In this document: in pieces, positions 5,838 to 59,920 of the stretch
Numbering within the stretch: position 1 is the first letter of the stretch
Layout: each line of letters starts with the position of its first letter
Assembly (NCBI RefSeq): GCF_040958095.1
Contig: NC_091227.1
Location: forward strand, 19,411,210-19,475,209
Origin: Procambarus clarkii
Lineage: Eukaryota > Arthropoda > Malacostraca > Decapoda > Cambaridae
Length of the DNA stretch: 64,000 nt
Direction: 5' to 3'
Position numbers and translations under genes: made by a program
The notes under the pieces: generated by a model
Seen by the model: only the letters and a program-made list of their open reading frames with translations
Database searches by the model: none
Told to the model about the DNA's origin: nothing

Positions 5838-8800
5838 ATGGCGAAAATGCAGGAATGTTCATTAATTGTCACACATTTACCTGCTGATATAAGCAGACGG
5901 GAAATACAAGATTATTTCAGCGAAGTTGGACCCGTTAAAAAGTGCCATCTTGTCAGGGATAAAAGTAAGTTTTTAGTAACATATTTAGCATAGAAGTTGA
6001 AAAAATTTTGCATGGGCTGGATACTTCCACTGTGACACCATTTAGTGCAGCAGCTGTATTCTCAATTGGTTTAACCTCAATACTAATTGGACGTATTATA
6101 TTTGTTGCTATTTTTTCACCATTTGATTTAGATACTGTAATGCCATAAGCCTTAGGCATGTTGCCAGTCCACATTTATATGATGGCAGATGCACACATTG
6201 CCTGCATAACAGAAATTGAACACAAGAAGGTTCAACCAAGTTCATTTCCGATTTTCAAAACCATATCTGTCAAAATTGATTGTAAAAAACACTTTTACCT
6301 GAAATGTTATGAGTGTTAGTGGCTTTGTAAGAATGTAAGAATACCAAGTTCCTACATTCTTACAGATTGTATTCTCACAAACCCAATGTACCCTCTTGTA
6401 TATAAATAAAGTAATTTTATATTTTTTTATATATACAAGAGTTTACATTTTTGCACAGCCACTTGCACGCATAGAGTTTCAGGCAAGTCCTTAATGCAGA
6501 ATACGACCCGCCAAAGTATTTAGCAACAAGGTACCCATTCACTGCTTGGTGAACAGAGGATGCAGTTAGAAATTGGCACCCAGTCAATCCTCCTCGGCCA
6601 GGATACGAACCCAGGCTAAAGCACTGGTTCCTACAAACCCAAGCCACAGCTCTCGGGTTCCTACGAACCCAGGCCAAAGCGCTCTGGTTCCTACAAACCC
6701 AAGCCACAGCTCTTGGGTTCCTACGAACCCAGGCCAAAGCGCTCTGGTTCCTACAAACCCAAGCCACAGCTGTCGGGTTCCTACGAACCCAGGCCAAAGC
6801 GCTCTGGTTCCTACAAACCCAAGCCACATCTCTTGGGTTCCTACGAACCCAGGCCAAAGCGCTCTGGTTCCTACAAACCCAAGCCACAGCTCTTGGGTTC
6901 CTATGAACCCAGGCCAAAGCGCTCTGGTTCCTACAAACCCAGGCCACAGCTCTCGGGTTCCTACGAACCCAGGCCAAAGCGCTCGGGTTCCTACGAACCC
7001 TGGCCAAAGTGTTACTAATATTAGTTATTGCTAATTGCAACAGTGTTTTCTTGGCAAAGGTTAAATTAGCACCCAGCCAGTTTATATGGCAAATTATTAA
7101 ACCAATTGATCAAATTATATCTACGAATGGGTTGTGTGTTGACTATAGACCTATTATGGGTTGATGTGCAAAGGCTTTACTATAAACCCTGCGTAGCTAA
7201 CATTGATGATCATTAGTATGTATATTTTTTGTTAATGATTTATTTATATACAAGAAGGTACATTGGGTTTATGAGAGTACATAACATTGTTGTTCTTATA
7301 TTCTTGGAAAGCTACTAACACGCATAGCGTTTCAGGCAGAAATTGTATTGTGTATCTTGTGTTTGTTTATTGGTAGCAGCTGTACTGTAATTATATATGT
7401 ATTGGCAGAATTGTACATCTGCCATATGCTCAGTTTGCTGAACCATATATCATCCAGTTTAAAAAGCACTTACTCATTGGTCATCAAACTGTCAAGTTAT
7501 TTACATTTTACTAATTTAAATTGCACCACTTGTTCAACTTTCACATATGATACCTAAATGGTTATTTACAATTGAAATTTGTCTTAAATATTGCATTCCC
7601 ACTATTTCAGATGGCACCTTTAAAGGAATGGCCTACATTATCTATTCTTTTGTGGAAGATGCCAAGCAAGCGGTTAAAAAGTATGATAATTCTACATTTA
7701 ACGGAAAAATTCTGAGAGTGAAATATTCTCGTCAGAGAGAAACGGAATCAGATGAAGATGTTTCTGGTGCACAACGTAACAAGGAAGAGGATGGAGAAGA
7801 AAATGAAACAAATATTAAGAAGAAAAAAACAAAGAGGAAGGACAAGAGACAGCCAGCAAAACAGAGAAAAGGAAGAATTATTATTAGGAATTTGTCTTTC
7901 AAGGTACGTTTTTCTTATGAACTATACAATTCAGTTACTTCCCAAGGTTGGACGAAATGCTTGGCATTGGCACCACTGGGAACTATTCAAATAACCCCTG
8001 AGTTCTCACTAGAGGTACTAGAGAATTTTTGGATATAAAGCCAATCCAGCCTCGAATGTCTGACAGTGTTTCATTGGTAAAACTCAGTCCTTTCAAATCC
8101 TCCCTTAGCACCATAAGTGATTGCCAATAAAGGGTTCTCACTAACTACAGTACCAATTGTTTGCCTGGCAACCCACATAACTGTGACCAGGTTGGACCAC
8201 CTCAGAGTTTTCAAACTCGGAGCCTTTCCCATATTCTCTGATTGTGTCTCATGCCAGTCAGCAGGTGGGCGGCCATTTTTCGGTTGTATGAGTTGTTTTC
8301 ATTCTATGAAACTTAATTTCTAGTGGCCTATGCTCGAAAATATACTGCTTTGTTTGTATATTTTTAAAAGACTTTATGTTTCTGATTCTTTCCAGCCTGT
8401 TCTTTCAATTCAGTGCCAAGTAAGGCAGAGGTAAACACTTCTATATTGAATTTCGAAATTAAAGGATAAATTTCAACAATATATGTTTTGTGTGAATAGA
8501 TTTTTATAATTTGTTTTAATCCACAAGTTTAGCACATTCTTGGCAATTTGTTGGGATCTCACACATGCCACATTTTTGTATGAAGCTTTAAATTATATTC
8601 TTGCATCATTGCATATTCCAGCATTCTGAACATCATTATATGCTGTAAACAAATAATTTGAAATGACACAAGTTCATTTGATGTACAGTATCATGCTATT
8701 GTTTGTAATTTCTGTATGTATATGCTTTAACTGTGGCTGGAAAATGAAAATAACATTAAATATTAAAGTTCTTATATAATTTTGTTGAATAGATTTGAAA

Positions 8801-49225: not shown

Positions 49226-52200
49226 ATGGACGCAGGACCTGTAAATAACGTCATCCTCCTGGCAGACAGTTACAAGGTAACGTATCTTAAATTGTTATAT
49301 AACCCGGTAGTACAGTCGGGTTCGTTCTCTTGTTGTTGTTGAGGATTCAGCTACTTGGAACAGAAGTTTCAAGAAGCACGGGCTATGGTGAGCCCGTAGT
49401 GGACTTAGGTTCCTACTCGACCCACAATCGGGAATTCCGAGTTCACATCTCGAGCGGGACAAAAATGGTAGGGCGCGTTTCGTACCACCTAATGCGCCTG
49501 TTCGCCTAGCAGTAAATAGGTACCCAAGAGTTAGTCAGTTTGTCCCCCGACACAATGAATTATTATTGCACTGATTTAGCACTATAAAAGAGTTATCTGC
49601 AACAAAATATAGATTTTTTGATCAAATGATTCATGATAGACTAACACAGTACCCCATCCTCCTCCACCCAGGGGGCACACTATTCACTGAAGGCCCTCAC
49701 AGACTAATCCAGTGCCTCCTCCTCCAGGTGGGGCACTACCAGCAGTACCCACCGGGTACCACTCTCCTCTACTGTTACTTCGAGTCCCGCGGAGGAAAGT
49801 AAGTCATCTTCGCATCTCTAAAAACTAATTAGAATCAGAGTATTTGACATTTTCAGTCGCAGCCTTGAGATAATTACCAACATGTGATTAGAAAAACAAG
49901 GACAAAAACAGTTGAGTAGGCCCATATTTGTTAGTGTTTTAAGAATCGTGAATTCAGGAAGTTTTCATTGTGGTTGGGAAGTGTTTTTGCTTGCTACAGG
50001 TTAGTGGTAAGCTTTTCAATGGTTTGTTTTGATCTAATACCACATTGAACATGTTGTGGCTAATGTCAAAATATTGCAAATGCAAGGTTTAAGGTATATA
50101 ATGTGTGTGTAGACACTTATGCATGGTTACTATCTTCCGCATCTGATGATGGAATTACTGAATATTATAAATGCTACTTTAAACTTTAATAAGCTTCTTC
50201 GTTACCTGTTAATTTACAACCATTTTCATTTAAAGCTTCTTAAGCTGACCTTCACCAGTGAATAAAATTGACAAACAATAATTAATGTTATTTACATAAA
50301 GAGGATAAATGCACAATACTTGAAAATGAGGCTGCGTCGCTCTGCTTTGTATGTTACAAATAATATCAATAACAGTAATAATAATGTTAAAATAATTAAG
50401 ATACTCAGAGTCAGCAAAAACAGCAGACAGCCTTCAGGTGTCATTATATAGATTCAGTACACATTTATTGTTTAAATTATGGATTATACCTCTGGGTCAT
50501 CATGGAGGGAATTGTCAGATTCAGTTTTAAGCCGTTCGTATTGCCGATTTTGCTTTTGGAAGTTACATGTTTCTCCTGTGATGGCATGTAATGGTAAACG
50601 TCTCTGGCAAGGTTTCCATACACCTGTTTCTTCGGGCTGCAATACATCCTTAAGCGATGGCTGGTGGGACCTGTCGTCACCCGTCAGGCTATCCAGGAGG
50701 CTAAAGAAATCTACTCCAACGTCTATATGAATGACGAGGACTTCAATGAGGATGGCTGGAACTATATTCTGGAGGTAAAGTATTTTATGGATGGTTTGGA
50801 ACTATATTGTTCAGGTTAGGTTCCTTCTATATTGTCAGGAACTAAATCTTAAGGAATATTATTTATGAAAAGTCTGGAGCTATTTTGATAGAAATTAACA
50901 CAATCAGTCAAATCAATCAAGAATTATATTAAATTCTTTATGGAAGTTCTGGAACTACATTCTGAAGCTGATGTTCATTATAAAAAGTTTATAAAACTGC
51001 ATCTTTGAGGTGAGACTCTAGAAATAGTTTGATAACATCTGGATTCAAGTTTCTCCTTAAAGAATCAGAAATATGCATTCATGTTAGGCTCTTCAGTGTT
51101 TGGATCTACAGTATGGAAATTAAGATATTTTGGAGTGCCTGACATTACATCCTGGACGCTATGTTATTTATGGAGGGCCTGGAACTACATATTGACCGTT
51201 AATTTTATCATTGAGGGTCGGAACTATATCCTGATATCGAGGTCATTTCCAGATTTCGTATACCCTGCAAATTAATTACAAATGGAACCCTAGAGTCATT
51301 ATGAAAGTAAATAGCTTGTTATATTTATGGATTTTTGTATGTTTATTTATTTATTTATTTATTTATATACAAGAAGATACATTGGGATTGTGAGGATACA
51401 TAGCATAGTAATTACATTCTTGTAAAGCCACTAGTACGCGCAGCGTTTCGGACAGGTCCTTAATCTAAGAAACTTATGTATGCACCTTATGTATGCACTT
51501 AATGGCCACCATACTTAGTTACTATGCAGGAAGACTTTACTGTTGTTGAAGCTTGCACTGTAATAATGACGTTAACATGTTGCAGCATCACGGAGGTCGG
51601 TTGCCGCTGCGGATCAAGGCTATACCGGAGGGGACTATCATGCCTACCAGAAACGTTTTATTTACAGTCGAGAACACCGACCCCGAAGTGCCCTGGATCA
51701 CCACCTTCTTCGAGGTAGGTGCCCTGGATCACCACCTTCTTCGAGGTAGGTGCCCTGGATCACCGCCTTCTTCGAGGTAGGTGCCCTGGATCACCACCTT
51801 CTTCGAGGTAGGTGCCCTGGATCACCACCTTCTTCGAGGTAGGTGCCCTGGATCACCACCTTCTTCGAGGTAGGTGCCCTGGATCACCACCTTCTTCGAG
51901 GTAGGTGCCCTGGATCACCACCTTCTTCGAGGTAGGTGCTCTGGATCACCACCTTCTTCGAGGTAGGTGCCCTGGATCACCACCTTCTTCGAGGTAGGTG
52001 CTCTTTATTAATAGCCTAGTACTGTCTTTTGAAGTCTTCCCCCCCCCCCCAAGTCTCTTACTTCCTGACGTAGGACTAGTACTGTCCTGCGAAGTTCTCC
52101 CAAGTATCAAAGAATGATACTAGGCCAACACCTGGTGTAGGCCTAGTATCATTCTTTGAGACGTCAAGTGAAGTGTATCCTAGGTTACTAATTATATGCA

Positions 52201-53133
52201 ATAATTATTAATAATTTTTCATCTGTACGTGCAGGAGAATTACGCTGACATTACAAAGGACACCATTGCATGAAATACATTGTAACTGGGGCAGCGGAAC
52301 AACGGTAAAAGGCAGGATACAAGAGGATTAACGGGAGCCGTGACGTTCCTGTGTTGATCAATAGCCACGATCACCCTCACGCCCTTCCGCTTTGCTTTAT
52401 TTTTGCCATGTCCAAGGCCAGTGTGGGCGGTGACGGCGGGCGGGGGGCTAGTGTGGGTGGTGACGGCGGGGGGCTAGTGTGAGTAGTGACGGCAGGGGAC
52501 TAGTGTGGGTGGTGACAGTGGGGGACTAGTGTGGGTGGTGACGGCAGGGGGCTAGTATAGGTGGTGACGGCGGGCGGGGGCTAGTGTGGGTGGTGTAACA
52601 CTATACACACTGCCCAACACTATATTTGTGAGTGTGCTGTTATCAGTAACTTGGGACCAAATGGTGTGAGATATTTTGAGCTCTGGAACTACTTCATACA
52701 CTCACAAATACTGGAAGATATCATTGTGCTTTACCCAGAGCTTGGTAGTGAAGGCTAGCAGACGAGACGCATCTCACGTTTGATCCGGATTCCGACTAAC
52801 CACCATGTGAGATGGGGATGTTAGATGAACTGATAGTTAGCTTTTATCTATACTCTGCAATCCTCAGTATAGAACATGGTAAGCAGCACCTTTTTGTGCG
52901 CACCCAAGCTTCTTAATGACGCACACACACAGTACCCGCACCATAATGTGGGCGGGTGACGTGAAGAGGGCGGCTCCCAGCAATTCAGGGATGTCAGTTT
53001 TTTGGTGCGGAGGGAAGTTCCTCCCGGGGGAACATGTACGTGTGTTGGGGCAGGTCTCCTTCCTCCCAGGCAACGCCGCGCCACCCTTACTCTCAACACA
53101 CCGAATCACCATCACCATCACCATCACCATCAC

Positions 53134-53171
<38 letters not shown>

Positions 53172-55918
53172 TAATAATAGTAATAATTATGTAATATGGT
53201 GTAATGCGCAATGAAACTTTGTTAGATGTTAATTTTAACAGAGGCTATAGTGTTAACTGCCGATGATGATTGGAAAGGTATTAATATTTACACTAAAGTA
53301 CCAATGTTTGCTGCAGACAGTGCTGGTGCAAGTATTAATGTTTACACTGAAGTACCCATATTTACTGCAGACAGTGCTGGTACAGGCGTGGTATCCGACG
53401 ACAGTAGCCACCAACTCCAGGATCTACAAGCAGGTTATCCACCACTACCTCGCCCTCACTCATGATAACCTCCTCCTCCTCGACTACTCTGTACGTTACC
53501 CCTCGATATACTTCAGATATATCTAGTTATATTGCCCAATTTTGTTGCTTTAACGTCGGTCTAACGTAGTCCAATGATGACGGTTGACGTTATAGCAACC
53601 TGAAAGGCCCACAGCTGATCCCCTTTACAATTTCATATGTGTTATATAGTTTAAATATAACTGCAAACTATTGTAAAAAGCAATACTCGTTTTCTCCATT
53701 TTATTTTACTGTAGCCTATAGCACGTTCGGATATCATGTAACTGATAATAAAACAATCAAGAAATCCTGTTCCTATCTTATCTCAACTGTGATCTTAACT
53801 ATATCCACGCACCAAATAAACAAACTTAGTGATAAAGATAAAGATTAAGCCACCCAAGAGGTGGCACGGGCATGAATAGCCCGTAAAAACTTAGTGACAT
53901 GCATAAAATTAATATATTACTGTGTGGTGCCAGATGCATGACTGCGGGTATCGGGGTGTCTCGTCTGTTGAAACTGCAGCCATAGGCGGTGCTGCCAACA
54001 TGATCAACTTCAAGGTCAGTCTGCTTTTGTCTTGCGAAATACAGTAGTGTATTCTGCCGCATATCTTTTTATAAATATTTTGCAATATAAACAAAACAGT
54101 TTATACGATAAACACTGCCGTGTAATCTTGTTCTGAGGGAATGCGTTGAGGGTAGTTTTAGTTTAATTGGTCTATCATTGACTCCATATACATAAGCTGT
54201 TGTGAGTGGAGGGAGTGCCGTATCGTAATAGTTTATGATAAAGGCTTCAGACACGGTGGCTGGGTCGTGTCTGCTGAGGAAGTACTACCACGTGGAGACG
54301 GTCGGGGGCATCTCTGGCTCCGGCTCCGAGCACTCCACCATCACCACTTGGGGAAGACATCGGGAGGCCGACGCTTTCAAACACATGCTTAACATCTACA
54401 AAGGAAGTATGGCAACTCCTACTTTTATGTCTAATAATAATAATAAGTTAGTAATAAATAACCTTAACGGCACTTTTATTTATTGATACTAAAGCTAATA
54501 TGTTGCTCTCTTGAGGTTATCTTGAGATGATTATCTTGATCTCAAATCTACTTCTCGTTTAGTTTTGTGTTACACCATTAACCATACAGGCCAATTACCT
54601 AGTGATGTTCAGGCTATGCTGGAATGCTCTACACAGATAGTAGTAGTAGTTGGCATCCAACAGTCTCGGGAGACTATGGAGTTGCGCTTAGGTTGTCGAG
54701 GCTGGAGTGTCCTCTAGCCTCGACAACCTCAAAGCCTCTGTAGGTTGATATGGAGAAGCTGTTATCTATGCAGCAGATCCCCACCCTTTCTACGTTGCTG
54801 AAATTGTTCTATGGAAATGCAAACGTCAATACGCTTGGTTTCAGTGCCGTCGCAGCAGGAGCTGCCAGAACGAGGCTGAAGTCAACAACGAACTGTCTTA
54901 GGGGTTCCAGCTGTTGTTGTTCTAGATTCAGCTACCCAGAACAAAATGTTGCAAGTATCACGGGCTATGGTGAGCCCGTAAGTGGAGGCTATTTGGAACC
55001 ATTATCTGTATCAATAGCTGATACTAAAGATCTGGCGATAGATGGGGGTCTTCTTGGTGGGTTTCAGCCTTGGAGGGCTGACTGTACCAGTTAGGGAGCT
55101 GGTGAGGTTAGTGTAGACCTCTAGGTCTTCCGTTTTTCCTTGCGTGAGACTTCGGCTGCGCCGTGCTGTCGTTGGAGTTTGGTGAGTGGCCTCCATTAGG
55201 AGGTCATGTACCGAGTAGGTGTCGTATTTGTGATGCGGCGGTGGAGCACCTAAGATTTTCTCGTCTGAGGAGTCCGTAACCTCCGTAGTGGGCGTTTTCG
55301 TCTTTCGCCTCGTGGCCTGAGGTGCGCTCAGGTATCATTGATTGATGGTAGAAGCTATTTCAGGAGCGCTGGTGGTGCTGTTAGCATTTGTAGACATTAC
55401 ATCTGCTAGCGTGGCTGCTGAGATGGTGATGGTAGGAGTGTTGGGAGCTGGAGAGGGAAGTACCTCTATTTATGCCGCCGGGGTCTTGGGTGGTTCTAGA
55501 GTCTGTGTTGAAATCGACCTCGTGGTCGTCCTGGGGGGTTTCAGCTCTGGAGCTTGCTTATATATTGTACATTGTTTACCTGTGACTTCTCTGTACTCAC
55601 CTATTTGTGTCTACAGGATCTGTGTTGTATATAAAATGTATGTATTTTATATATATAAATTATTGTCATAAAATATTACCCAATTATGGTGCTTTTGCTG
55701 TTATTGTAAATATTAAATCTGTACTGCTGTTAAAACTAGAGATTCAGTGATAGATTAGTCAGATGCCTTGCATTATTATCACTTATATATTGTATATTAT
55801 TTATTATATATCACACAGAAACTGTATTGGAGGGGACCTAAACATTCCCTCTAATAAGTTATGTGTGTTTTCCTCAGAGGCTAAGGGTCCCCTTCTTCCA
55901 GCCAGAGGTGGTACTCCA

Positions 55919-56013
<95 letters not shown>

Positions 56014-59000
56014 GTGATTTCTCTTCACGGAGTGTAATAGTAATGAATTTTGCATATGTTGCATTTTAGGTACCCTCATTTTCACGAAGTGATATTTTAC
56101 AGCCCAAGAGCATCAGACCTTCATCTTCTGCCACTTTCTCTGAATGTCTGTCGTCAACATATCAATAAATATGAAATCTAGGCCCATACAATATGCATCA
56201 AATTTCATTATGTAGGCCTATGCAGCCAACAGTGGCTCTTGACCACTCCTCATTTGGTTTATTGCTTCAATGACACTCCTGTAGGGGCCATCGGGTGTGT
56301 GATTGACTCGTATGACATGTGGAAGTGCTGTGAGGAAATCCTCGGCGGTCAGCTGAAGGAACTCGTGAAGGATCACGCCAAAAGTGGCGGATACATAGTT
56401 GTGTGCCCCGACAGTGGCGACCCTAATGTTGTCGTCTTGAAGGTGGGTGTGCTTACTGTACCTGAGGCTATGTCATGTTCTAGGGGTTCATATTGTGTCT
56501 TAAATGGTCTCTGACGAATTTGAAGTATTATACTTAGACCCGAATGCACTATCGTGAAGGGGAAGGGTGTGTCACATTAATTGCCCTCGAAATGTGACTC
56601 CATGTGATAGGCTACATATTGTACTACACCATATGCAGACGATGAGTCATAATAACGTGGCTGAAGATATAATGACCAACCTACACATCAGAAGGTGAAG
56701 GAAGAAATGAGAACGTTTCGGTCCGTCCTGGACCATTATTAAGTCTTGTGTGAGTAAATTCGTCGTTGATTTGTCATCTTCTGAGGTGTGGTTTGGTCAT
56801 CACTGTACTACACCATGTCACAATGGGCTGTGTACTCTTATTTAGTGTTGCGGTTGTGTCATTTTGTTAATTTTGCACAAGCGCCTTCAAGTCACCACTC
56901 ATGAGAAGATGGGTAAACGATGACGTTTTGGTCCCTCCTGGACCATTATCAAGTCGTGTAATCACACGATAATGGTCCAGGACGGACCGGAACGTCGTCA
57001 TTATTCACCATCTTCTGATGTGTGGTTTGGACATTATATCTTCGGCCATCATCTTCGACTCATCGTCCCCTGACTACATTATTAAAGTCAGAGTACAGTA
57101 CAGGTGTATGGTTTGGACGAGAGTTACATCTCAACGATTAATACGGGTGCTATCCTAGATCCAGTCCTATTATTGTACGTGACCTCGCTGAAGAGGTTAT
57201 GGCACTGTGTACGCCAGAGGGTTAACCCTGGTAATGCAGGTTCGAACCCTGGTTGGGTTATAGTGCCTTCTTGTCTACAACACCTACCCGCCGAAGCCGT
57301 ACATATCAAAGTCCAACATTTCAGTTTAAAATTAAGGTGGAAAAAAATCTAAAAAATAATGGGACATCTTAGACAAGCCACCGGCTTCCTGTCCCTGCCG
57401 AGGCCGTTAGTGGGCCCTCAGGTCATAAACAGAGGGAGAGTGCGAGTGAGTAAATGTTTCACAACGACCCTGTGGTCCTCCTACAGTGCCTGGAGATCTT
57501 GGGTCAACAGTTTGGGACGGAGACCAACAGCAAAGGCTACAAGATGCTGCCCGCGTTTCTCAGGGTCTTCCAAGGCGACGGTGTTAGCTACAAGTCAATT
57601 GGTGAGTCTCTTACAGGGATTAGCGCTCGGGGGTAGTAGTCCTAAAGGCCCGGGCTCGATTCCCGCCCGAGACGGTTTCTTTCACCAGATGGTTCTGTTC
57701 ATCTAGCAGCAAATAGGTACCTGAGACTTAGACAGCTACTACAGGCTGCATCTTGGGGATGTGTGTACGAGTGAAATATATACTTAGTAGACATGATAAG
57801 AGGAAAAACAGGTTGGGGGTCAACCTTATTAACCGACGGTCAGAAAGGCAGAGTTCAAGAACTAACAGCTAGATCCTGCAGGCAGAAATAGTAAATACAC
57901 ACATCTAATATTCAATCAAACAATACAAATTATAAATACCTGCTAGGTATTATTATTAATAAAAAAAATGCTTAAGGATATGCCATCAGGTAATAATAAT
58001 AATAATAGTGTCAACAGGTGTTGAAGGGTGATGACTGAAGAACAGGCTATATAAAATGTTTGCATAATGTTAATGTGTATATATATAGCCTTCCCCTCCC
58101 TCAGGCACGATACTGGAGACATTGAAGAATAACGGCTGGTCAGCGGCCAACGTTGGGTTCGGGTCTGGCGCCTCTCTCCTCCAACGGGTAACATCTTTTA
58201 TCATTATAATTATGTTTTCCTAGCATCTATACTCAAAATGTAATTATGAATAGTAATGCGGTATACCACGTCAACCAAACACCCAAACTGAAAGCAGCCT
58301 ATAGTTTTGCATTGGAGTTTTAGTACAGTTTGTATGCTTTAATTAATCATGTCTTAAAGATTTATAAGCAATGTTTTTTTACTGTTACAGCTTCCCAAGT
58401 TATTCAAATTTCTTTGTTTGAAAGTTGTGTTCCATATCAGCTTTCCATGAGACTACTAAATTGCCACAAATTATTTTATTTGCTACAAAAAAATGGTAAA
58501 ATATTAAATTGAATTGGAATAGATTAAATATTTATATAAGATGAAAATACTGTATGTTAGTTTTTGTAACCACTTTAGTTGGTCCATACAATACAATTAT
58601 TTTATATTAATAGAGCAGGGAGTTATAATTTCATGTACAGTATTTGAACTGAAGCAATAATTAAGTGCATGCTGACAAAATGCTTCAGGCAAGTCTCAAA
58701 ACTTAAAAACTTAGCAATATGGTTGCGTTGTACATGTATATTTTCAACCAATAAGAAGTTTTAAATTTATCATGCATTTTGGACTAGAAGGCCTACTAAA
58801 AATGACCTATTACGTTAAAAAAAATGTTAATTAGCAAAATGCAGATTCTGTGGTACCTTGTTATCATCTAGGTTAGCATAACTAAATTTAAAATAGCTTA
58901 ATAGGTTAATCTGAATATGTGACTTTACATATTAGCCAAGTATAGAGTAATTACAGCAGTACATTTAGCATCCTGAATATGCAAATGTTAGTTAAAGTAA

Positions 59001-59920
59001 ATAACAATTAATGTCTAATTACTAATAGTAATTAATGATAATATTCAAGTATTTACATACAATAATGTTATAAATAAATAAATGTTTATTCAAGTAAGGT
59101 ACATACATACAAGAGATGTATGTTTACATACATAAGACATTGTAATTGCTTATACAAAAAGATACTAAATAATGTTGGACTTATTAAACGTGATTTAATA
59201 CTACAGATAATGTACAACAAAGAGAAATATAGTTAGGACATTCTTACATTCATCAATATCGCTTGTATTCACAGCTTGACCGAGACACCCAGAAGTTTGC
59301 ATACAAGTGCAGCCAGGCTGTGGTGGGCGGGGAGGAGGTGGAGGTGTACAAGGAACCCATCACAGATACTGGCAAGACCAGTAAGAAGGGCAGACTCACC
59401 CTCCAGCGAGACAACGGAACCTTCACCACCATTCAACATGGCAAGGGAGACCCAGAAAAGGTATACAAATTGTAATTCATCATATATAAGACTTTGAAGG
59501 TATTGTGATACAGTATTACGAAATTTACTAAGTATATGTATCGTTTTAGATAACTCGTCAGGGAAGCAACTTTTTTGGGGGGGAAAGAGGGGAAATAAAT
59601 GGGTATAGTTGAAGATAACACAAATTCTAATACTGTATATTATTCTAGGCCTGGCGACACTCATTTACATATCTACCATTTTAATAATCCAACTTCAGTA
59701 ACTACAAGGCATCATACAGTAATAAAACTTGTTATAAAGTAATAATAAACTTTTCTATATTCGAATTTAATAAGAGCTAGCTTGTTTGCAGGACTTGCTT
59801 GTGGCAGTGTTTGAAAACGGGGAGCTTCTTCTGGACTACACATTTGATGAAATTCGCCAGCGGGCCCAATTAACACCCGATGACATCAGTATTCTCAAGT
59901 TCCTGGCTGACGAAAAGTAA
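49226..59920 (+). CDS. NAMPT: Nicotinamide phosphoribosyltransferase (NAMPT), twelve coding exons
   Basis: NAMPT converts nicotinamide and PRPP to NMN and PPi, the rate-limiting NAD salvage step, as a cytosolic/nuclear homodimer. Coding exons: 49226-49276, 49728-49798, 50612-50774, 51586-51714, 53371-53490, 53934-54014, 54244-54406, 56285-56442, 57487-57601, 58105-58187, 59275-59460, 59792-59920. Phases fit throughout, giving 482 aa (human 491). Landmarks: LLADSYK (dimer-stacking Tyr, human Y18), FFGLQYIL, MPTRNVLFTVENTDPE, SWYP-like AWYP with TVATNSR, GYRGVSS (R196), SDTVAG (D219), EHSTITTWG (H247), PDSGDP (D313), FQGDGV (G353-D354), LDRD (R392), KCS (K400), KKGRL. Human F193 and R311 are both Cys here (residues 182 and 300). 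The exon 7/8 junction (donor GTATGG) is the least certain. Exon 4's donor region is tandemly repeated and exon 5's acceptor is duplicated. Confidence 0.93.
49330..49560 (+). repeat. tRNA-derived SINE, family A (NAMPT intron 1)
   Basis: 'gttgttgttgaggattcagc' then 'acgggctatggtgagcccgt' lead into 'cgagttcacatctcgagcgg', 'cctgttcgcctagcagtaaa' and 'taggtaccc'. The first block recurs at 54910-54985 without the rest. Confidence 0.7.
51335..51475 (+). repeat. Dispersed repeat copy (NAMPT intron 3)
   Basis: A (TTTA)n run then 'tatacaagaagatacattgg', 'gattgtgaggatacata', 'gtaaagccactagtacgcgc' and 'agcgtttcggacaggtcctt'. This is the best copy of the family at 7230-7345. Confidence 0.6.
51689..51993 (+). 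repeat. 31-bp tandem array of NAMPT exon-4 end plus splice donor, 10 copies
   Basis: The last 26 bases of coding exon 4 (tgccctggatcaccaccttc then ttcgag) plus the donor start GTAGG form a 31-bp unit. It is repeated so that 'TTCGAG|GTAGGT' occurs at exon-end positions 51714, 51745, 51776, 51807, 51838, 51869, 51900, 51931, 51962 and 51993. Copies differ by at most one base. Each copy brings an equally good donor, but only the first keeps frame with exon 5. Confidence 0.97.
52421..52600 (+). repeat. GC-rich ~28-bp minisatellite, ~6 copies (NAMPT intron 4)
   Basis: The unit is approximately 'agtgtgggtggtgacggcgg' plus 'ggggct', with indels in the G-run. It lies in the same intron as the 31-bp array. 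Confidence 0.88.
53106..53168 (+). repeat. (CATCAC)n/(CAT)n microsatellite
   Basis: About 63 bp of CAT and CAC triplets. Open frames through it encode His, Ile or Met runs and are artefacts. Confidence 0.95.
53279..53386 (+). repeat. 54-bp tandem duplication of NAMPT exon-5 acceptor
   Basis: Copy 1 (53279-53332) and copy 2 (53333-53386) share 'tattaat.tttacact.aag' and 'ctgcagacagtgctggt'. Each therefore contains a CTGCAG|ACAGTGCTGGT acceptor, at 53316/53317 and 53370/53371. Use of the upstream one adds 54 nt (18 codons) with no stop and no frame change. Confidence 0.93.
54620..55560 (-). mobile_element. Decayed transposable-element segment (NAMPT intron 7)
   Basis: 'tctcgggagactatggagtt' plus 'gcgcttaggttgtcgagg' (about 54664) and 'acgggctatggtgagcccgt' (about 54960) are dispersed-repeat text. 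On the minus strand, 55560-55011 gives a Pro/Thr/Ser-rich frame with stops, ending in a 61-codon stretch (TTARRSRSLTQGKTEDLEVY). It resembles the low-complexity N-terminal part of an element-encoded first ORF. It is broken, and I cannot assign the family. Confidence 0.4.
55922..56008. repeat. (TA)n microsatellite, ~87 bp
   Basis: A pure TA run in NAMPT intron 7. It creates spurious Ile-Tyr repeat frames on both strands. Confidence 0.98.
56636..56812. mobile_element. Palindromic MITE, copy 2 (NAMPT intron 8)
   Basis: 'gatgagtcataataacgtgg', 'gaacgtttcggtccgtcctg', 'gaccattattaagtc', then the returning arm 'catcttctgaggtgtggttt'. It has a partially degraded right arm. Same family as 30879-31050. 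Confidence 0.75.
56885..57062. mobile_element. Palindromic MITE, copy 3 (NAMPT intron 8)
   Basis: Left arm 'gatgacgttttggtccctcc' plus 'tggaccattatcaagtcgtg', right arm 'cacgataatggtccaggacg' plus 'gaccggaacgtcgtca', ending 'catcatcttcgactcatcgt'. It lies about 70 bp from copy 2. Confidence 0.78.
57195..57275 (+). repeat. tRNA-like SINE head (NAMPT intron 8)
   Basis: 'tatggcactgtgtacgccag' followed by 'ggttcgaaccctggttgggt' gives A- and B-box-like blocks at tRNA spacing. The text does not fold into a full cloverleaf, so it is a SINE piece and not a tRNA gene. Confidence 0.45.
57610..57860 (+). repeat. tRNA-derived SINE, family A (NAMPT intron 9)
   Basis: It begins within about 10 bp of the exon-9 donor: 'gggattagcgctcgggggta', 'gggctcgattcccgcccgag', 'ggttctgttcatctagcagc' and 'aaataggtacc', then 'aggttgggggtcaacc'. 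Confidence 0.7.
59080..59165 (-). repeat. Dispersed repeat fragment (NAMPT intron 10)
   Basis: 'ataaataaataaatgtttat' followed by 'tcaagtaaggtacatacat' is the reverse of the tail of the repeat at 5640-5700. Confidence 0.5.

Follow-up and report, generated by a model that had tools for sequence, protein, structure and literature searches.

In the potato RdRp gene, an intron was gained through a tandem duplication that crossed an intron–exon boundary of a protein-coding gene and copied the splice signals, as described in PMC4974935. The same source describes the AGGT model of Rogers and the ATP2A1 case, in which the duplicated unit contains AG|GT. A short repeat in multiple copies, each with a proto-splice-site motif, has been reported for the fission yeast genes SPOG_01682 and SOCG_00815 (PMC3629103); the motif is AGGC in that report and AGGT according to PMC4974935, and the introns have some EST support, which PMC3629103 itself calls incomplete. 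In crayfish, minisatellites with short units in tandem are abundant, as surveyed at the level of genome-wide satellite families in PMC13130569, in the main text of which the word "intron" does not appear. A search of titles and abstract openings, covering few subscription papers, did not find a multi-copy donor array in the literature.

Here, we describe such an array in a 64-kb stretch of the Procambarus clarkii genome (hereafter the window). It shares with the potato gene the duplication of splice signals across a junction; however, the potato intron arose from one acceptor-side duplication, whereas this locus holds ten donor-side copies together with a two-copy acceptor duplication, both read from the DNA sequence. 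The fission yeast repeats are exonic, 24 nt long and frame-neutral, in contrast to a unit that straddles the junction and, at 31 nt, shifts the frame. As in the Rogers model and ATP2A1, the unit includes AG|GT, although no new intron is evident in the present case. The gene, the exon and the array are as follows.

49226..59920, + strand: NAMPT-like gene (C78) with 12 coding exons and 482 aa, 11/11 introns GT-AG (tblastn with human NAMPT, exon model, Pfam, phmmer)
51586..51714, + strand: coding exon 4, ending at donor 1 in phase 0 (tblastn, exon model)
51688..52001, + strand: 31-bp minisatellite with ten donors GAG|GTAGGT (TRF, copy list, donor scores)

TRF described the array as period 31 with 10.1 copies, 98% matches and a score of 614. 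Copy by copy, eight of the ten units are identical, and copies 3 (starting at 51751) and 9 (starting at 51937) carry one private substitution each (A>G and C>T, respectively). The unit joins the 27 terminal bases of exon 4 to the GTAG that opens intron 4, and all ten donors read GAG|GTAGGT at a spacing of 31 bases, so that the donor array of exact 31-bp period claimed in the initial annotation was confirmed by both approaches. Head-to-tail units of 31 bp in 10.1 copies fall within the range of minisatellites (about 10-100 bp), and AG|GT lies inside the duplicated segment, as in the Rogers model, with GAG|GTAGG present in every unit. Eleven copies of GAGGTAGGT lie on the + strand of the window, ten of which belong to the array, and none on the − strand; Rfam returned no matches in the window at gathering score. 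The array is best read as a young minisatellite that is tolerated because splicing chooses the first donor. We assign a probability of about 0.7 to this reading, namely that a slippage-born minisatellite covers a splice junction in a divergent NAMPT paralogue, that donor 1 is used and that the array is mostly silent. Its exact 31-bp period, its homogeneity and the preservation of the full 482-codon frame argue for a silent minisatellite.

Tandem repeats are error-prone in assemblies, and the copy number could therefore be an artefact. However, two units carry private variants, the array spans only about 310 bp, which is short compared with a long read, and in the 4.03-Gb assembly (one assembly) the array with its flank was found at one place only among the matches listed, which makes an artefact very unlikely. 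The 11 matches listed for an exon 4 query against the same assembly comprised nine that fall on the exon and the array units of the window locus, one on C49 and one on C88. A query with the intron flank recovered the window locus and an overlapping inverted match to the same stretch, and one with the acceptor region of intron 4 gave a single match; a second haplotype or second array copy was not found among the matches listed for these three queries. The exon 4 DNA-search matches listed also contained no processed copy that would reveal the donor used, and the copies on C54 were absent there too.

The boundaries of the array point to how it may have started.

51688..51691, + strand: GTGC, left copy of a 4-bp microhomology bounding the repeated unit (right copy at 51998-52001)

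GTGC at both ends of the unit is the expected trace of slippage across a 4-bp direct repeat with a 31-bp spacing, and it lends support to the earlier proposal that a minisatellite was born here from a splice junction. We propose that replication slippage from one GTGC tetramer to the other, 31 bp away, would have generated the first duplicate, perhaps helped by a hairpin-forming unit, and that more slippage or unequal exchange would have expanded it to ten near-identical copies. The upstream edge of the array would thereby retain an intact exon 4 and its donor. In the predicted fold of one unit, the donor pairs with the upstream CACCACCU (RNA z −1.19, DNA z −1.67; two units of DNA, z −2.49), a fold that may favour slippage. 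The support for this is modest: z-scores were −0.75 to −2.25 for five RNA stretches and −0.80 to −2.49 for four DNA stretches, the complementary DNA strand gave −0.80, the hairpin was not the minimum-energy fold of an 85-nt RNA that included a longer part of exon 4, and in an RNA fold over 475 nt the array units pair with one another. The idea of a strong switch based on RNA structure was considered and rejected (z −0.75 to −2.29). With its clean boundaries, the array illustrates how a splice junction can give rise to a minisatellite.

The exon model of the host gene is based on homology and splice consensus, the exons having been placed by tblastn with human NAMPT. Pfam assigned NAMPT_N and NAPRTase domains (122.4 and 156.4 bits; cut-offs 25 and 20.8), and the closest solved relatives by phmmer are NAMPT structures (best E 2.1e-156). 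The gene family and the position of the junction at coding exon 4, both given in the initial annotation, agree with this 12-exon model. At the equivalents of Phe193, Arg311 and Gly384, which are among the catalytic or ligand-binding NAMPT residues listed in PMC3665594, C78 has Cys, Cys and Ala; Phe193 and Arg311 are likewise given as active-site residues in PMC4158320. Asp16 and Tyr18 are both kept in exon 1, which was modelled for C78 only. C78 is a divergent member of the NAMPT family, and its identity as an enzyme is putative.

Several further NAMPT-like genes are present in the 4.03-Gb genome, on C49, C88 and, as multiple copies, C54; a 2013 study had reported no recognisable NAMPT homologue in the representative arthropods it considered (PMC3665594). 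Hemocyanin gave 31 matches in this genome, and the one protein compared (L041) is closest to PDB 1hc1 and 6l8s, which are hemocyanins of decapod arthropods; a search with a crustacean neurohormone family yielded no match here, nor in any control genome. Exons 2 to 11 have the same lengths in C49 as in C78, and C88 differs only in exon 7 (160 versus 163 nt); no position was found for exon 1 of C49 or C88 or for exon 12 of C88. Over aligned positions, C78 is 63.9% identical to C49 and 64.2% identical to C88. C49 carries Cys, Arg and Ala at Phe193, Arg311 and Gly384, and thus two of the three changes of C78, as well as Ala at Gly353; its frame is open from exon 2 to the stop. C88 matches human NAMPT at 14/14 catalytic or ligand-binding positions compared, including these three, and would be a better candidate than C78 for the ordinary enzyme. 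At least six exon 4 places were found on C54, two of which (L030 and L031) are identical across the 90 bases compared and might be assembly copies of one another. C54 is a chromosome-size contig with many NAMPT-like exon matches over megabases, some of them apparently identical (L004-L008, L030-L034). The paralogues read at the exon 4 junction (C49, C88 and five loci on C54) each have a single GTAAGT donor, and none of them has a donor array at the equivalent position.

The three residue changes in C78 and the existence of other NAMPT-like copies would also fit a damaging expansion, in which splicing is destroyed by the array and the paralogue is being lost. We consider this quite improbable, because the 482-codon frame and all 11 GT-AG introns are intact, and C49 has two of the three changes in common with C78 and is nonetheless open from exon 2 to its stop. 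Furthermore, the C78-C49 comparison gave an NG86 omega of 0.187 at a dS of 1.48, which is near saturation; it is the one pair out of three that could be used, the other two being saturated. With the same limit on dS, this value suggests that C78 is constrained on average.

The possible outcomes of splicing depend on the sites at both ends of intron 4, which are listed below together with a further repeat inside the intron.

51778..51780, + strand: in-frame TAG met by any exon 4 extension past donor 3 (copy list, exon model)
52439..52595, + strand: second minisatellite within intron 4, 26 bp, 5.9 copies (TRF)
53278..53381, + strand: 54-bp tandem duplication (1.9 copies by TRF) of the intron 4 acceptor and the start of exon 5 (TRF; copies in register)
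53317..53370, + strand: in-frame 18-codon extension of exon 5 via the upstream acceptor (exon model, site scores)
53371..53490, + strand: coding exon 5 from the downstream acceptor (exon model)

The initial annotation had overlooked the duplicated acceptor of intron 4 and the in-frame microexon route described below. Only two of the 20 donor–acceptor combinations keep the frame, namely donor 1 with either acceptor, resulting in 482 or 500 aa. Donors 2 to 10 lead to early stops with both acceptors, and in all 18 of these combinations the stop lies at least 811 nt before the last junction. Transcripts with a stop well upstream of the last junction are usually targets of nonsense-mediated decay (NMD), and the 18 stop-bearing combinations would be predicted NMD targets by this rule. 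The frame consequences that had been claimed for the later donors therefore hold, and so does the existence of an in-frame TAG, although its position had been given as 51777-51779, one base off.

Among 31 donors, the array donor ranks 16th by a local matrix and 6th by predicted pairing with U1 (−9.9 kcal/mol), calculated with the U1 end sequence. The ten sites are equal in sequence, and therefore position and context decide between them. According to PMC9225289, long introns go with a preference for the upstream member of near-equal human donor pairs, and over all such pairs 60% of events favour that site; in each of five minigenes built with 365-nt introns and two identical strong donors, splicing took place only at the upstream site. 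The same study reports that minigenes with larger exons mostly skipped the exon when both donors were very weak, and that most events favour the downstream donor when no strength filter is applied. This donor-proximity rule was derived from human genes and two-donor minigenes, whereas the present array has ten donors; passages from PMC8724738 did not settle donor choice. Both introns flanking exon 4 are long (811 and 1656 nt), so that under exon definition the donor closest to the exon 4 acceptor is expected to be its partner. We thus predict that donor 1 is used almost exclusively and that copies 2 to 10 would be removed with the intron. A small leak to donors 2 to 10 would run into stop codons and probably NMD, leaving the array nearly neutral.

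The initial annotation had proposed that the array acts as a splicing-error sink or as a copy-number-dependent tuner of NAD salvage. In such a mechanism, U1 would be spread over the ten donors, and a share that depends on copy number would be spliced via donors 2 to 10 into NMD, thereby setting the level of the NAMPT-like product. This would be consistent with the stops in the 18 combinations, with the sixth-strongest U1 pairing and with the finding that, in 51586-53371, no GT site other than the ten array donors comes within 0.5 bit of the donor 1 score or exceeds it. However, the published preference among identical donors in long introns predicts the use of donor 1 (PMC9225289) and leaves the sink and the tuner unsupported, and the junction array is absent from the paralogues read. 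Moreover, it would be odd to tune NAD through a gene that is one of several NAMPT-like copies and a divergent paralogue, with changes at three catalytic or ligand-binding positions; because C88 keeps the residues that C78 has lost, a tuner of NAD salvage is doubtful. We regard regulation of this kind as possible but unlikely, the points in its favour being read from the DNA itself. The array is a natural counterpart of hand-built splicing experiments: a native gene whose long introns flank an exon with ten identical donors, one every 31 nt. Each donor can be read by its own junction, so that the proximity rule of exon definition becomes testable with ten sites instead of two, and the array would be well suited as a natural experiment on the choice among identical splice sites.

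The unit might also serve as a nursery of introns and microexons, as it combines an acceptor-like cgaggtag|GTG, a 27-nt phase-0 microexon (VPWITTFFE) and a donor that together would allow in-frame inclusion. Joining donor 1 to the TAG|GTG of an internal copy keeps the frame; when just one of copies 3 to 10 is included, the full frame encodes 491 aa and the first intron measures 35 to 252 nt. Tandem duplication of AG|GT is also what the Rogers model describes (PMC4974935). We nevertheless consider this very improbable: the TAG and GAG acceptors of the unit score 2.15 and 3.68 bits, compared with 9.22 bits for the exon 5 acceptor, and among 32 inferred real acceptors (0.28 to 12.55 bits) one lies below 2.15 and three lie below 3.68. 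In addition, the splicing of very short exons and introns is inefficient.

At the other end of intron 4, the two 54-bp acceptor copies differ at seven of 54 positions when placed in register. The acceptors at 53317 and 53371 have near-equal scores (8.81 and 9.22 bits), and the 54 nt between them are in frame and open. The preference for the upstream site was significantly reduced for acceptors in the long-intron class (PMC9225289), and therefore both intron 4 acceptors may be used. The acceptor duplication looks older than the array, or less homogenised, because its copies diverge more than the array units. An acceptor at 53070 was considered as an alternative on account of its score (9.58) and was rejected, since the extension is out of frame and contains stops. 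When the 11 donors and 11 acceptors of C78 were searched for repeats of a 16-base core with up to two mismatches within 1 kb, two of the 22 junctions were repeated, donor 4 with nine extra copies and acceptor 5 with one, both belonging to intron 4. This could mean that intron 4 is a hot spot of junction duplication that offers ten donors and two or three functional acceptors, where copy number sets the unproductive share or feeds 27-nt microexons and the 18-codon insert. We consider such a combined role quite unlikely; if true, a single intron would generate NAMPT-like length variants as the minisatellite mutates.

Arrays with units of at least 15 bp in at least five copies are frequent in the sequence analysed: 16 were found in 200 kb, about 80 per Mb, in a non-random sample consisting of 15 stretches around NAMPT-like genes and the window. 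Repeat units are shared between L023 and L024 and between L018 and L038. If arrays fell at random with this density, a 31-bp seed would cover 372-620 of 150,000-250,000 donors (assumed numbers), and therefore one such case needs no special cause. Intron 8 of C49 (L018 4628-5129) contains a 56-bp sense-strand array with nine perfect CAG|GTAAGT sites, and donor-bearing arrays thus occur in introns of open-frame genes. The unit of this array recurs in a 5-copy array at L038 316-589, which lies about 14.6 kb away from the last exon that was found for C88. The sequence GGGCTATGGTGAGCCCGTA is found twice in the window, at 49380 and 54962, and the 56-bp minisatellite unit contains its reverse complement; the sequence is probably a dispersed repeat. 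The window also holds a 30/60-bp minisatellite at 6604-7009 (6.7 copies of the 60-bp unit), which is overlapped by open frames of at least 90 aa, three on the + strand and two on the − strand.
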